Below are positions 11,585 to 18,040 of a stretch of DNA of 64,000 nt, piece after piece; the stretch's first letter is position 1, and each line of letters starts with the position of its first letter. The notes under the pieces are model-generated. The model ran no database searches and was not told the origin of the DNA. It saw only the letters and a list, made by a program, of their open reading frames with translations. The position numbers and the translations under genes were made by a program. This stretch comes from Micromonospora chokoriensis (GTDB taxonomy: Bacteria; Actinomycetota; Actinomycetes; Mycobacteriales; Micromonosporaceae): assembly GCF_900091505.1 (NCBI RefSeq), contig NZ_LT607409.1, positions 4,960,001 through 5,024,000 on the forward strand. Direction: 5' to 3'.

Positions 11585-11667
11585 TCATGATCCACTCGAC
11601 ATTGGCGAAGTCGGGGTATCCGGGCGGCTCGGACACCCCCACTTCAGGGAACCCGAGTGGATCAAGC
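11585..11667. repeat. Palindromic element, copy 2
   Basis: The left part has tgatccactcg followed by gcgaagtcggggtatcc, and the right part has acacccccacttcagggaacccgagtggatcaagc. The outer tgatccactcg is an exact inverted match and the gaagt.gggg core matches with few changes. It is clearly related to the elements at 410-492 and 34760-34842 in arm sequence, spacing and the ggggtatcc core. Confidence 0.85.
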
Positions 11668-11750
11668 CGGTTCGGGCCGCCGAGGACCAGGGGCGATCAG
11701 CGTCGCACCAGAGGCCCAGCCCGGCGGCTTTCGCAGGGCCGGCCCGGGGA

Positions 11751-11993
11751 GCGCGGGGCACCACCAGGAGCCAAGGCCCGGCAGGCGCGGGGCACCACCA
11801 AGAGCCAAGACCCGGCAAGCGCGGGGCACCACCAAGAGACCAGGCCCAGCAGGCGCGGGGGCACCACCAGGAGACCAGGCCCAGCAGGCGCGGGGGCACC
11901 ACCAGGAGACCAGGCCCAGCAGGCGCGGGGGCACCACCAGGAGACCAGGCCCAGCAGGCGCGGGGGCACCACCAGGAGACCAGGCCCGGCAGG
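11751..11993. repeat. Tandem repeat, 34-35 bp unit
   Basis: About seven units of gcgcggggcaccaccaggagaccaggcccagcag are seen; the first three are 34 bp and more diverged, and the later four are 35 bp with an extra g (gcgcgggggc) and almost identical. The gradient from diverged to identical copies suggests recent expansion at the right-hand end. Confidence 0.85.
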
Positions 11994-12251
11994 CCGACCG
12001 ATCGGCTGTTCGGGGGAACCGCGCCTGACCGTTCGACGGACCGTCACGCAGGGCGAGGCCGGCGGGCCGGGCCACACGCTGAGCGACCGCAATCACACCC
12101 CGAATCGGAAATAACCGTCTCGCCTGTTGTGCGGTTTTGCTTCACTCCACTGCCGTTTTGCACCACCGAATCCCCCTGATCGGGGCAAAGTGTGGCGCAT
12201 GCCACCGTACCGGCGGACGATATCGAGCAATTGGGTCTTTAGCCTCGGCAG

Positions 12252-13769: not shown

Positions 13770-14216
13770 TCAGACGCGCTTGGGCAGCACCACCACCCGG
13801 CCGAAGAACTCGTCGATGCGGCGCACCACGTCGTTGAAGTCGTCCAGGTCGATCGGCTTGGTGACGTACGCGTTGGCCTGCAACGTGTAACTGCCCACGA
13901 TGTCGGTGTCGGCGTTGGAGGTGGTCAGCACGACGATCGGGATGGTCCGCAGGTCCTCGTCCTGCTTGACCGCGCCGAGCACCTGCCGACCGTCCATCCG
14001 CGGCATGTTGAGGTCGAGCAGGATCACGTCCGGCCGGCGGGCATCCTGGTGCCGGCCCTCGGCGCGGAGGAACTCCATCGCCTCCTCGCCGTCGCTGACC
14101 ACGTCGATGACCTTGTCGACGTCGGAATCCGCCAACGCCTCCTCGATCATCAGCACGTCACCCGGGTCGTCGTCGACCACGAGGATGCGTACCGGCTGCG
14201 GGCTGTCTGCACCCAT
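13770..14216 (-). CDS. Single-domain response regulator (Rcp1/CheY-like)
   Basis: 148 residues, receiver domain only: ILVVDDDPGDVLMIEEAL, phospho-acceptor DVILLDLNMPRMDG, VVLTTSNADTDI and AYVTKPIDLDDF. The insertion after the phospho-acceptor strand and the DPGD..MIEEAL start are typical of regulators paired with phytochrome-like or hybrid kinases. No output domain is present, so it acts by protein contact. The start is ATG 14216 (MGADSPQPVRILVV); the longer frame to 14258 is unlikely. It lies 67 bp after the STAS gene on the same strand and belongs to the same signalling locus. Confidence 0.92.
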   Translation of the reverse strand: MGADSPQPVRILVVDDDPGDVLMIEEALADSDVDKVIDVVSDGEEAMEFLRAEGRHQDARRPDVILLDLNMPRMDGRQVLGAVKQDEDLRTIPIVVLTTSNADTDIVGSYTLQANAYVTKPIDLDDFNDVVRRIDEFFGRVVVLPKRV

Positions 14217-14283: not shown

Positions 14284-14634
14284 TCAGAGAACGGTCTGCG
14301 ACGCCGGGTCGAGCGATCCGGGGTCGTGGCGCAACACGTCGGCGAGCCCGGTCACCCGCAACACCCGTTCGACCCGCCCGTTGGCGCCGGTGAGCCGGAG
14401 CCACCCTCCGTCGGCGGCGGCCTGGTTGTCTCCCCGGACAAAGACCGCCATGCCGGTGGAGTCGCAGAACGTGAGGTCGGTGAGGTCGAGCAGCAGCCGG
14501 GTCTCGCCGGCGGCGGCGAGATCCTCGATCGCGGTGGTCAACTGAGGGGCCGTGCTCAGGTCCAGCTCGCCGGTGAGCCGCAGCCGGGCGGCACCCCCGC
14601 CGTCGCGCTCGACGCGGCTGACACTGAACGTCAC
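14284..14634 (-). CDS. STAS-domain anti-sigma factor antagonist
   Basis: 116 residues: ARLRLTGELDLSTAPQLTTAI, then LLLDLTDLTFCDSTGMAVFV and a C-terminal LRLTGANGRVERVLRVTGLADVL. The DSTG motif holds the serine that is phosphorylated by an RsbW-type anti-sigma kinase in partner-switching systems, so this protein should be a functional antagonist. Start is GTG 14634, with GAGGGGGA just upstream. It lies downstream of the phosphatase and the B12-binding protein, which makes it a likely dephosphorylation target of the phosphatase (inference). Confidence 0.92.
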   Translation of the reverse strand: MTFSVSRVERDGGGAARLRLTGELDLSTAPQLTTAIEDLAAAGETRLLLDLTDLTFCDSTGMAVFVRGDNQAAADGGWLRLTGANGRVERVLRVTGLADVLRHDPGSLDPASQTVL

Positions 14635-14753
14635 CGTGCTCCCCCTCGCTCCACCCCGTGGTGGGACGTTTGCAGTGCGACAAGTATACGCAGAGCTGAC
14701 GCGTCGGCCGGAGGGCGCGGTGATCGACCCGGAGCGGCCGGTCGAGGGCCTCG

Positions 14754-15791
14754 TCAACGGTTGGCGACGGGCAGCGCGGCGCGGCCGAGGGCCAGCGCAC
14801 GCGCCGCTCGGGGGAAGTCACGCAACGCGACACCGAAGTGGTCGAAGGGCAGGACCACCGCCTCGGCGGGCACCCCACGACTGACCAGGATCTCCACCAG
14901 CCACTCGGCGAACTGGGTGAACAACGACGGGTCGTCGACGTAGACCGCCGCGGCCAGGAAGTCCACGATGTGACCCAGGTCGCTCACTGTCGAGTCGAGC
15001 TGGGTGGCGCTGTAGGAGCGCACCGCCGGCACCCGCTCCAGCAGGTCGGCCAACGCGCCGTCGATCAGCTCACCTCGACGCCGCACCAGGCTGGCGTACT
15101 CGTCGTCGGCCAGGTGCGCCAACCGCGCCGGCGGCACCGCGCGCAGCGCACCCTCGTCGGAGATGAGGTCGGCCGCCGCGGGGGCGTCCGGCGCCCAGGC
15201 CACGCCGAGGCGACGCGCCCACCGGCCGTCCGTGCCGAACCCACGCCCACCGACCACCACGGGTACGTCTGAACGGCGGCACGCCTCGATCATCCGGTGG
15301 GCGTACGGCAGCCGCATCGGCAGCGCGCACGCCAACGCGACAGCGTGCGCGTCGTAGCGGTGCAGGTACGACACGAGGTGGGCCGCCGGCACGCTGGCGC
15401 CCAGGAAGGTCACCTGCCAGCCGCGCAACCGCAGCACCTCGGCCACCAGCCGGGGCGGCAGCGCGTGCCACTCGCCGTCCATGCAGGCCACCACCACCCG
15501 TCCGCCGGTCGGGCGGGGGTCGACGTGCGCGACCACCGCCGCGACCACCTGCTCGCTGATGTGGGTGGCGGCGTGCTCCTGGGCGACGCTCCACTCGTTG
15601 CGCGCCCACCGCTCACCCACCTCGGCCTGGGCGGGAGCGACCAGGTCCAACAGCACCCGCTCGGCCGGTACGCCGGCGTCGAGCAGGCCGATCGCCAGGT
15701 CGATCGCGCCGTGCTCGTCGGCGTCGGCGAGGCAGTCCAGGTAGCCGGCGAAGGCCCCGGCCGGGCCGGCGGCCGTCGTGGCGGCGGTCAC
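14754..15791 (-). CDS. Cobalamin-binding photoreceptor-like protein (CarH-type B12 module without DNA-binding domain)
   Basis: 345 residues. An N-terminal helix bundle carries RWARNEWSVAQEH, i.e. W62-x9-E72-H73, the motif that caps adenosylcobalamin in CarH/LitR photoreceptors; the Rossmann-like part has DGEWHALPPR with His109 in the position of the cobalt ligand, and LGASVPA further on. There is no MerR-type DNA-binding domain; instead a ~170-residue uncharacterised C-terminal part follows. GTG start overlaps the stop of the phosphatase gene by 4 bases (GTGA), so the two are coupled. Expected role: a light- or B12-responsive input to the phosphatase/STAS partner switch (inference). Confidence 0.82.
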   Translation of the reverse strand: MTAATTAAGPAGAFAGYLDCLADADEHGAIDLAIGLLDAGVPAERVLLDLVAPAQAEVGERWARNEWSVAQEHAATHISEQVVAAVVAHVDPRPTGGRVVVACMDGEWHALPPRLVAEVLRLRGWQVTFLGASVPAAHLVSYLHRYDAHAVALACALPMRLPYAHRMIEACRRSDVPVVVGGRGFGTDGRWARRLGVAWAPDAPAAADLISDEGALRAVPPARLAHLADDEYASLVRRRGELIDGALADLLERVPAVRSYSATQLDSTVSDLGHIVDFLAAAVYVDDPSLFTQFAEWLVEILVSRGVPAEAVVLPFDHFGVALRDFPRAARALALGRAALPVANR

Positions 15792-17545
15792 GCGTCGGTC
15801 TCCCCCCGCTGGGCGATGCCGGTCAGCTCGGGCACCGAGTGCAGGTGCCGCGACCCGCGCCCGCCCGGGACGGTCGCCCGCAACGCCAGCACCGCGATGT
15901 CGTCGTGGTCGCCGTGCCCCAACCAGTCGCAGGTGACCTGCTCCACCCGCTCGGCGAGGGCCGGCGCGGGCATCCGTTGACAGCCGGTCACGGCGGCGAC
16001 GAGCCGTTCCGTGCCGAACTGCTCGTCGCCGCGTCGGCCGCCACGGGCCTCGGTCACCCCGTCGCTGTAGAGCAGGCAGGTCTCCCCCGGCGCCAGTCGT
16101 ACGGTCACCTCACCGACGCGGGGATCGGGCACCACCCCGATCAGCATGCCGCGCAGCGGCACCGCCTCCACCTCGCCGGAGGTCCGCAGCACCAGCGGCG
16201 GCAGGTGCCCGCCGCCGGCCATGGTGAGGGTCAGGCCTCCGTCGCGTCGCGGGCGGGCCACGCCGAGCACGATCGTGGCGAAGCGACCCTGGCCGTGCGC
16301 CTGGGTGGTCTCCAACAGCGCGTCGTTGAGCAACCGCAGCAACCGCCCGGGGTGCGACTCCAGCCGGTGCAACGCCTGCAGGCACTGCCGCAACTGGCCG
16401 GTGAAGACGGCCGCCTCGACACCCTTGCCGGACACGTCTCCGAGGAAGAACACCGAGCCGCCGTCGGCGAGCCGGTGGGAGCCGTAGAAGTCGCCGCCGA
16501 TGCGCAGCCCCGCCTGCGCGGGCCGGTACGCGGTGCCCCACTGCACGCCCGCGGCCTCGGCCGGCTCGACCGGCAGCAGACTGGCCTGGAGGGTGTCCGC
16601 GACCTCCGCCTGGTCACGGTAGAGCAGCGCGGTGGTCAACGCCGCGCCGGCGCGGGCCGCGAACGCGCGGATCAGGTCCACGTCGGCCTCGTCGTACCAA
16701 CGGGTCGCACGGCGGGCCACCAGCAGCACACCGACCGGCGCGTGCCGGCCGGGCAACGGGATCACCCGGGCGGCGCTCTCGGTGCCGGCGAGGGCGGGCA
16801 GCCAGCCGGCGTCGACCGCCTGCTCGACCAGCCAGTCCACCGCGTGCGGCTCGACCCCGGTCAGCCCGTCGGCGATGGCTGCCGGCAGGTCGCCGCCGGC
16901 CAGCGTCCCGCTGTCCACCGTCGGGGCCTCGTCGTCGGTGCGCGAGGCCCGCCACCAGCGGGCCCGACCGCCCCGTGGGGCGAGCACCAGCACGGCCACC
17001 TCGGCCAGGGTCGGTACGGCGAGACGGACGACCGCCGCCGCGGCCCGGTCGGGGTGCAGCGGATTGCCCAGCTTGTCGCCGACGACGGCCAGGAACGTCG
17101 AACGCGCCCGTTCGGCGAGCAACGCGTCGGCGCCGCTGACGCGGTCGGTGACGTCCTCGACGTACCAGCAGCAGCGGGCCCCGGAGAGGGGCACCCGGCG
17201 GGCGCTGAGCCGGCGCCCGCGATGGGTGAAGTCGCCCTCGGCCATCTCGGGCACACCGGCCGCGTCGAGCGTCTCGCCGGGCGTCACCTCGGGCACCAGG
17301 CGTTCCGCCACCGGGCTGACGTGCCGCACGACGCCGTCGGCGTCGCAGACGATCAGGCCCTCCCGGAAATGCTCGACGACCTCGAACCAGTCGGGGGCGG
17401 CGAGGTCGCGGTCGGGGGCGAGCGGCGGAAGCGCGGCGGCGGACCGGGGCAGCAGGCCGGCCGACCACGCCGGGGACCGTGTCGTACTCGGCGTGGGAAG
17501 CCGTCCGTCGCCCGGGTCTACGTCCCTGACGTCGGAAGCAGTCAC
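15788..17545 (-). CDS. PAS-GAF-SpoIIE (PP2C-type) serine phosphatase, RsbU-like
   Basis: 585 residues: an N-terminal PAS-like segment (EHFREGLIVCDADGVVRHVSPVAERLVPE), a GAF-like domain (~170-330, ending WYDEADVDLIRAFAARAGAAL) and a PP2C/SpoIIE phosphatase (GDFYGSHRLADGG, FFLGDVSGKGVEAAVF, GGHLPPLVL, LLYSDGVTEARG, and HDDIAVLALR) with all the metal-binding aspartates of the family. It should dephosphorylate a STAS protein to free a sigma factor. GTG 17545 has GAGG upstream. It is followed by the coupled B12-binding gene and STAS gene, and is divergent from a second STAS gene at 17717. Confidence 0.92.
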   Translation of the reverse strand: MTASDVRDVDPGDGRLPTPSTTRSPAWSAGLLPRSAAALPPLAPDRDLAAPDWFEVVEHFREGLIVCDADGVVRHVSPVAERLVPEVTPGETLDAAGVPEMAEGDFTHRGRRLSARRVPLSGARCCWYVEDVTDRVSGADALLAERARSTFLAVVGDKLGNPLHPDRAAAAVVRLAVPTLAEVAVLVLAPRGGRARWWRASRTDDEAPTVDSGTLAGGDLPAAIADGLTGVEPHAVDWLVEQAVDAGWLPALAGTESAARVIPLPGRHAPVGVLLVARRATRWYDEADVDLIRAFAARAGAALTTALLYRDQAEVADTLQASLLPVEPAEAAGVQWGTAYRPAQAGLRIGGDFYGSHRLADGGSVFFLGDVSGKGVEAAVFTGQLRQCLQALHRLESHPGRLLRLLNDALLETTQAHGQGRFATIVLGVARPRRDGGLTLTMAGGGHLPPLVLRTSGEVEAVPLRGMLIGVVPDPRVGEVTVRLAPGETCLLYSDGVTEARGGRRGDEQFGTERLVAAVTGCQRMPAPALAERVEQVTCDWLGHGDHDDIAVLALRATVPGGRGSRHLHSVPELTGIAQRGETDA

Positions 17546-17716
17546 CAGCTGAGCCTCACTCCTTGTCGTCCGCCCGTGCCCGCGCCGGAGACCGGCGCGT
17601 GGTCGAAACCCTTCAGGCCACCCTACGCCGGTCGGCCGATAGTGGCACCTCGGCGTATTCGGGGCGAACGGTCGTGCCCGCTTTGCGTTTCTGCACGCGG
17701 CTGGGAAAATGGCGGC

Positions 17717-18040
17717 ATGTCCGACCAGCTGTTGACCATCGAGGCAACCCGGCTCGACGCCGGGCACGTCCGACTCCGGCTGACCGGCGACCTCGACTAC
17801 GACACCGCCCCGGAGCTGGCCGCCGTGGCGGCCGACCTGCACGGCGACGAGGTGCTGGTCGACCTGGGCGGGGTCAGCATCTGCGACTCCTCCGGGCTCA
17901 GCGCGCTGCTGGTGGTGCAGCGCAGCGCCCGGGTGATGCACCTGACCGGGGTCGGCCCGCAGTTGCAACGGATGCTCGACCGCACCGGCCTCGCCGAGTT
18001 GCTGGCTGTCGCCGACGACGACCTCCGCGCCACCGGCTGA
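17717..18040 (+). CDS. STAS-domain protein (second antagonist)
   Basis: 107 residues: VRLRLTGDLDYDTAPELAAVAA, LVDLGGVSICDSSGLSALLVVQ, ending TGLAELLAVADDD. The DSSG motif has the phosphorylatable serine. It is divergent from the SpoIIE phosphatase and separated from it by 171 bp that contain the shared promoter region. Together with the STAS protein at 14284 it gives the locus two possible phosphatase substrates, and it may compete for the same anti-sigma kinase (inference). ATG 17717 is the only sensible start. Confidence 0.92.
   Translation: MSDQLLTIEATRLDAGHVRLRLTGDLDYDTAPELAAVAADLHGDEVLVDLGGVSICDSSGLSALLVVQRSARVMHLTGVGPQLQRMLDRTGLAELLAVADDDLRATG

Follow-up and report, generated by a model that had tools for sequence, protein, structure and literature searches.

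A stretch of 64,000 nucleotides from Micromonospora chokoriensis (contig NZ_LT607409.1, positions 4,960,001 to 5,024,000; hereafter the window) encodes, in overlapping genes, a SpoIIE-type PPM phosphatase and a B12-binding protein of the photocobilin family, with STAS-domain anti-anti-sigma proteins on both sides. We think it likely that this photocobilin and SpoIIE constitute a photoreceptor-phosphatase pair heading a partner-switching pathway, and the evidence supports a standalone CarH-type B12 photosensor, without a MerR domain, that is tied by gene arrangement to a partner-switching module of SpoIIE and STAS proteins. Judging from gene neighborhoods and the tree, standalone photocobilins of the class Actinomycetes probably have SpoIIE as their native effector, because the linkage extends across the class, is seen in none of 14 loci outside it, falls on a nearly single clade of the photocobilin tree and is accompanied by an RsbW-like kinase gene in four loci. 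The breadth of this conserved pairing suggests that SpoIIE is what the photocobilin controls, and we infer light control of the phosphatase.

Organization of the locus

The host genome is a single contig of 6.9 Mb, in which the genes of the locus are placed as follows (window coordinates):

15788..17545, minus strand: SpoIIE/PPM phosphatase, 585 residues (Pfam SpoIIE, 2.9e-41)
14754..15791, minus strand: photocobilin (B12 plus bilin-globin photoreceptor), 345 residues (PF02607 and PF02310, both above cut-off; phmmer match to 8J2W)
15788..15791, minus strand: GTGA overlap of the SpoIIE TGA stop and the photocobilin GTG start, 4 nucleotides (sequence)
14284..14634, minus strand: downstream STAS anti-anti-sigma protein, 116 residues (STAS_2, 1.7e-17; TIGR00377, 75 bits, above its cut-off)
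13770..14216, minus strand: single-domain response regulator, Rcp1/RcpA-like, 148 residues (REC, 3.7e-21)
17717..18040, plus strand: divergent STAS anti-anti-sigma protein, 107 residues (STAS_2, 7.5e-14)

The minus-strand order is SpoIIE, photocobilin, STAS and response regulator, with the second STAS gene diverging on the plus strand; the gap of -3 between SpoIIE and photocobilin recurs in most Micromonospora loci. An earlier note made from the sequence alone had read these genes as a B12- or light-sensing module feeding a partner switch, an interpretation that is partly supported. Every gene that it named (SpoIIE, the B12 protein, the flanking STAS genes and the REC gene) is present with Pfam matches above cut-off, and the coupling of SpoIIE to the B12 gene that it described is borne out by the four-nucleotide overlap. 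It was also right about the CarH-type Wx9EH motif and the missing MerR domain, for which the Pfam scan of the B12 protein gave no match. The single-domain regulator that it placed behind the pair exists, but lies outside the interval 14284-18040 to which it had assigned the module.

The photocobilin and its chromophore residues

Sequence and predicted structure identify the B12 protein as a photocobilin of full length. In phmmer searches of the PDB its residues 18-341 match 8J2W and 8J2X (E 1.3e-101 to 8J2W) and its residues 10-319 match 8J2Y (E 1.5e-48), while Foldseek aligns its AlphaFold2 model (pLDDT 91.5) with 8J2W at TM 0.88/0.92 and 55% identity. The first two structures are of SasPcob and the third is of AbPcob (PMC10979010). 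Each of the seven SasPcob residues checked is kept, W61, E71, H72, H108, H137, D270 and W296 corresponding here to W62, E72, H73, H109, H138, D271 and W297; the last two represent the biliverdin-pocket residues Asp270 and Trp296. The full-length match and these seven residues identify the C-terminus as the bilin-binding globin of the family, a domain earlier named photoglobin (Schneider 2022). The region of about 170 residues that the earlier note had called uncharacterised accordingly turns out to be a known domain of the photocobilin family (8J2W/8J2X/8J2Y, solved 2024). The input that it proposed, blue/green light or adenosylcobalamin, holds as far as a CarH-type B12 photosensor is concerned, but the predicted chromophores are adenosylcobalamin plus possibly biliverdin, i.e. 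green and red. The relevant features are:

15573..15608, minus strand: Wx9EH motif (W62, E72, H73) (sequence and homologue alignments)
15465..15473, minus strand: ExH motif (E107/H109), with H109 the predicted lower axial cobalt ligand, equivalent to SasPcob H108 (role from PMC10979010)
14772..15104, minus strand: C-terminal bilin-binding globin, about residues 230-340, with D271 and W297 (residue comparison, AlphaFold2 model and Foldseek)

W62, E72 and H73 are invariant in the homologue alignments A1, of 25 rows, and A3, of 31; the degraded homologue L054, discussed below, is in neither. Among the 34 homologues of the class, Trp is kept in 33, and the equivalent of Asp270 is changed in nine, most of which keep SpoIIE; AbPcob has a His in place of this bilin Asp (PMC10979010). 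The relative L240 scores 21.6 bits against the Pfam Phycobilisome model, slightly below the 22.2 cut-off. A MerR-type CarH/LitR transcription factor was considered for the B12 protein and rejected, there being no MerR match and only 65 bits to the CarH model NF052513 against a cut-off of 400. The same genome does have a MerR-B12 protein, at another place (L065:9088-10071).

Linkage to SpoIIE across the class

A sample of 197 genomes of the class yielded photocobilin matches at E<=1e-20 in 30, amounting to 34 matches in 32 loci (L033-L064). In 27 of the 31 testable loci the gene immediately upstream, on the same strand and usually overlapping, is SpoIIE; L055, in which the photocobilin starts at a contig edge, was set aside from this count, and the tandem second copies in L036 and L037 were counted with their locus and given their own rows in the tree. 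Among the loci without SpoIIE, L059 has a GGDEF gene overlapping the photocobilin start and an ABM gene overlapping its end, and L061 has G6PD upstream and a GGDEF-EAL gene downstream. At L058:1083-4247 the photocobilin has a HATPase_c_2 gene and a KaiC-family protein downstream, placing a light receptor beside a clock-type ATPase, and L057 has no recognised neighbor. A second, named set comprised the best 80 of 547 relatives in the genome collection, the closest of which are from Micromonospora species with 85-89% protein identity. SpoIIE is directly upstream in all 80 (L169, L147 and L160 being judged from coordinates), including 22 loci of other genera such as Streptomyces, Mycobacterium, Actinoplanes and Microbispora. 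Since the 6.9 Mb host genome contains only 15 SpoIIE matches, this recurrent adjacency in both samples is not a product of chance.

In L036 and L037 two diverged photocobilin genes stand in tandem behind one SpoIIE, with the chromophore residues kept in both; it is possible that their products form a heterodimer.

Neighbors outside the class and the photocobilin tree

A phylum-wide sample of 396 genomes gave matches at E<=1e-30 in 49. Of its 56 matches, 30 stop short of model position 260 (of 344) and were excluded as covering the B12 domain alone. This left 12 full-length matches within the class and 14 outside it (L238-L251), and SpoIIE is found in the neighborhood of none of these 14, two of which (L241, L250) start less than 1 kb from a contig end. 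Instead, a GGDEF gene precedes the photocobilin in L239, L244, L245 and L247, and also in L238 and L241, there with an ABM gene in between, while an EAL protein precedes it in L243 and an ABM protein in L242. Outside the class there is thus an apparent exchange of effectors, between SpoIIE and diguanylate cyclase, beside the same sensor. No partner was recognised in L240, L246, L248 and L249, a neighbor in the last having a GGDEF match with an E-value of only 0.11.

The linkage is equally structured on an IQ-TREE phylogeny of 50 photocobilins. It requires two changes on the tree, compared with a mean of 15.2 when shuffled (0 of 500 shuffles as low), and the SpoIIE-linked photocobilins make up what is nearly a single clade (support 94/93), which also includes SasPcob and the long-branched L061. 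In the midpoint-rooted drawing its sister is a GGDEF-rich group with AbPcob (weak support, 65/87). Distances among photocobilins and among their SpoIIE partners are correlated (Mantel r 0.887 for 56 pairs and 0.798 for distant pairs, the best of 2000 permutations reaching 0.19), a coefficient in which shared species history remains. Two of the genomes have a pair of systems, and in these every photocobilin tracks its own SpoIIE, being closest to the same partners or nearly so.

Two of the loci outside the class show further associations. L250 encodes a photocobilin-GAF-ANTAR fusion (L250:997-2778), which suggests light control of RNA antitermination, and in L251 a heliorhodopsin gene (L251:8295-8972) lies directly downstream of a divergent photocobilin.

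The SpoIIE phosphatase

The AlphaFold2 model of SpoIIE arranges, in order, a PAS-like domain, a helix (133-159), a GAF domain, a second helix (286-322) and the PPM domain; with a mean pLDDT of 83.1 and a pTM of 0.56, the packing of these domains is unsure. The domains are:

17153..17389, minus strand: PAS-like domain, residues 53-131 (model secondary structure; Pfam PAS_4, 0.034, below cut-off)
16634..17053, minus strand: GAF-like domain, residues 165-304 (model; Pfam GAF_3, 7e-4, below cut-off)
15875..16546, minus strand: PPM (PP2C-type) catalytic domain, residues 334-557 (Pfam, AlphaFold2 model and Foldseek)

Foldseek matches the model to the RsbU-type phosphatase domains of SiaA, RssB and Rv1364c. 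The metal-site residues Asp352, 370, 495, 548 and 549 are invariant in 31 linked homologues.

STAS proteins, response regulator, kinase and sigma factor

Both STAS proteins exceed the Pfam STAS/STAS_2 cut-offs and contain a D-S-[ST]-G motif (S59 in the downstream and S58 in the divergent protein), the Ser of which we take to be the phospho-serine of the family. A gene related to the divergent STAS is present in most Micromonospora loci. In the named set, counting neighbors at phmmer E<=1e-4, at which weak relatives may be missed, a downstream STAS gene is seen in 52 of 58 Micromonospora-type and 10 of 22 other loci. The response regulator, which finds 5TE9 and then RcpA (1K68, 5.7e-35) and Rcp1 (1I3C, 2e-34) in phmmer searches, and so resembles the response regulators of phytochromes, is downstream in 57 of the 58 Micromonospora-type loci (the sequence of L183 ends in the photocobilin), as against 0 of the 22 others. 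On account of this distribution, the REC gene is an addition of Micromonospora and not part of the core of the pair.

Kinases were sought in the neighborhoods with a domain hidden Markov model and Pfam. None of the Pfam-scanned genes of the window locus matches PF13581 (HATPase_c_2) above cut-off, and a histidine kinase at 7115-8620 matches it below cut-off. Elsewhere the same genome has stand-alone PF13581 kinase candidates, as well as three sigma genes of the SigB/F/G type above cut-off, none of them at the photocobilin locus. In other genomes the kinase is encoded at the locus: L041 has the order STAS, HATPase_c_2, SpoIIE and photocobilin, and in L043, L063 and L064, too, SpoIIE is immediately preceded by an open reading frame with a kinase domain. 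By their gene content, the sets in these four loci are partner-switching modules.

Proposed mechanism and competing explanations

SasPcob responds to light by cleavage of the Co-C bond and loss of adenosine, whereupon its dimer falls apart, and photocobilins activate a diguanylate cyclase in the light, also in trans (PMC10979010). By analogy, the window photocobilin would in the dark be a dimer binding adenosylcobalamin, with biliverdin if available, and light would break the Co-C bond, release adenosine and dissociate this dimer. In the RsbU switch the PPM domains are dimerised by a helical linker that becomes a coiled coil, and sensors have been proposed to be exchangeable among PPM, GGDEF and kinase outputs through shared coiled-coil control of dimers (PMC12143880). 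The photocobilin may similarly act in trans on SpoIIE, binding its PAS/GAF/helical-linker part and altering the dimerisation that turns the PPM domains on. SpoIIE would then dephosphorylate one or both STAS proteins, which, following the logic of known systems, would release a sigma factor bound by an RsbW-like kinase whose gene lies elsewhere. In Micromonospora the added Rcp-type response regulator perhaps supplies a second input. Beyond this locus we lean, with rather less assurance, toward a wider scenario: standalone photocobilins of the class would have SpoIIE as their native and ancestral effector, a B12-plus-bilin receptor whose targets in related lineages are diguanylate cyclases having been re-wired nearly once to PPM phosphatases, with the result that sigma-factor partner switching would be light-controlled in many spore-forming and mycobacterial genera, and Micromonospora would have added a second antagonist and the Rcp-type regulator to make a two-input switch.

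Several observations weigh against the proposed pair. No kinase or sigma gene is recognised in the window operon, and the named loci are mostly from Micromonospora, being close relatives and not independent. The closest SpoIIE paralogue in the same genome (L252:8676-10286, C1 near 2.477 Mb), which has GAF and weak PAS matches (308 bits), is followed by a second SpoIIE gene and has no photocobilin beside it; over its full length it outscores most linked SpoIIE proteins (35 of 45), so a SpoIIE of the photocobilin-linked type can work without a photocobilin. Conversely, the photocobilin of L054 (L054:8635-9642) has lost the equivalents of W61, H108, D270 and W296, four of the seven residues, and still adjoins SpoIIE, so loss of B12 photochemistry need not break up the pair. 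In the trans test of SasPcob on a diguanylate cyclase, the effect had opposite signs with and without biliverdin (PMC10979010); as a result, the sign of SpoIIE control is not predictable. Neither a PF01126 heme oxygenase (other heme-degrading families were not searched) nor a PHY domain is found in the host genome.

These last absences bear on an alternative that we consider unlikely yet the most serious, namely that what the photocobilin senses is not light but the supply of adenosylcobalamin or the redox state, its apo or holo form setting SpoIIE activity. Binding of adenosylcobalamin alone lowers the cyclase activity of AbDPcob relative to the apo protein (PMC10979010), and the changed Asp270 equivalents in the class, mostly beside a retained SpoIIE, would suit such a role; against it, the adenosine-pocket residues W62, E72 and H73, which are light-dependent CarH-type features, are invariant in A1 and A3, and the Trp is nearly universal. 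It is improbable that the genes are merely co-transcribed and that the photocobilin targets something else, such as a diguanylate cyclase, the STAS or the REC protein. While SasPcob activates a diguanylate cyclase in vitro (PMC10979010) and the modeled SpoIIE has PAS/GAF sensors of its own, the class-wide linkage, the conserved order and the near-single gain on the tree speak for SpoIIE, and loci lacking it often adjoin another signaling enzyme (GGDEF, EAL or HATPase), as expected if the neighbor is the effector.

A still smaller chance attaches to the photocobilin having a chiefly structural role as part of the phosphatase, in which sensing of light or B12 has been lost or has become secondary. 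L054 would fit this, but it is the sole case of such degradation among the 34 homologues of the class. The idea that the B12 protein is simply a subunit of a corrinoid methyltransferase or mutase, lying near SpoIIE by chance, is for practical purposes refuted. Weak corrinoid-protein matches do occur (TIGR02370, 28 bits), but they are far below the 215-bit cut-off, whereas the photocobilin match is full-length, globin included (E 1e-101), the Wx9EH motif is present, and the scanned neighbors include no corrinoid methyltransferase gene.

Relationship to known systems

A photoreceptor-phosphatase pair of this kind would combine elements of several known systems. SasPcob, the standalone photocobilin of Saccharothrix syringae (8J2W/8J2X), shares 55% identity with the window protein over its whole length together with the same B12 and globin residues, and lies inside the SpoIIE-linked clade, STAS/SpoIIE having been suggested as its interactors (PMC10979010). 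It differs in that its published trans assays used a diguanylate cyclase of another organism, SpoIIE coming from an interaction network (PMC10979010). In the photocobilin-diguanylate cyclase fusion AbDPcob (8J2Y; 36% identity) a photocobilin likewise controls a signaling enzyme of the dimer type, but the cyclase is fused in one chain, while here the SpoIIE phosphatase would be controlled in trans. The MerR-type B12 photoreceptors CarH and LitR share the B12 domain and its Wx9EH motif (Foldseek alignments, about 31% identity), whereas the photocobilin lacks MerR and has an extra globin.

On the phosphatase side, PPM phosphatases of the RsbU/RsbP type in B. subtilis similarly have sensor domains, a long helical linker and an adjacent STAS gene (PMC12143880). 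The difference is that the extra sensor here is a photocobilin and that no kinase or sigma gene is recognised with it in the window operon. In the RsbP/RsbQ pair a separate sensor protein is encoded with the phosphatase, a position that the photocobilin occupies here. YtvA-type stressosomes provide light input to a sigma-factor partner switch through a flavin LOV-STAS sensor; the likeness is a light-controlled sigma-factor switch, but the chromophores here would be B12 and bilin.

The function of standalone photocobilins has been called 'less clear', one having been tested on a cyclase of another organism (PMC10979010), and the conserved gene pair offers them a testable native partner. If the proposed pairing is true, green/red B12-bilin light sensing joins the inputs of partner switching. 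The apparent GGDEF-to-SpoIIE exchange also fits an exchangeable toolkit of dimer control for PPM phosphatases and diguanylate cyclases (PMC12143880). The earlier note had considered the arrangement new and only partly described: the SpoIIE/STAS wiring stands, but the operon is conserved across the class and the SpoIIE/STAS link had already been suggested from a protein-interaction network (PMC10979010, the one paper that we found linking photocobilin to SpoIIE/STAS). Only the counts of operon conservation, the boundary at the class and the tree are new. This restriction is made because the gene neighborhoods were reportedly analysed in the photoglobin paper (Schneider 2022), which may already list SpoIIE.

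Chromophore supply and further features of the window

Adenosylcobalamin is a plausible chromophore because the host genome has a PduO-type adenosyltransferase gene. Heme oxygenase as a co-occurring partner was not supported: among the 197 genomes of the class sample, PF01126 is present in 14 of the 30 with a photocobilin, two of the matches being weak, and in 54 of the 167 others. Small ABM-fold monooxygenases adjoin photocobilins in four loci (L059:9795-10100, L238:8260-8613, L241:2-634 and L242:6993-7328). They match the heme-degrading monooxygenases HmoB/MhuD/HmuQ weakly, far below the NCBIfam cut-offs (L059 and L241 by NCBIfam alone), and are, as a lead only, a possible non-canonical source of bilin.

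Two other stretches of the window also drew our attention. Between the kinase and the next gene, at 11585-12096, are short G+C-rich repeats with GTTRRPGPAG-like translations, which are probably noncoding tandem repeats. Upstream of SpoIIE, at 17546-17716, an alignment with 12 relatives shows a conserved block (GGCGTAGGGTGG...AGTTTTGAC in the relatives).

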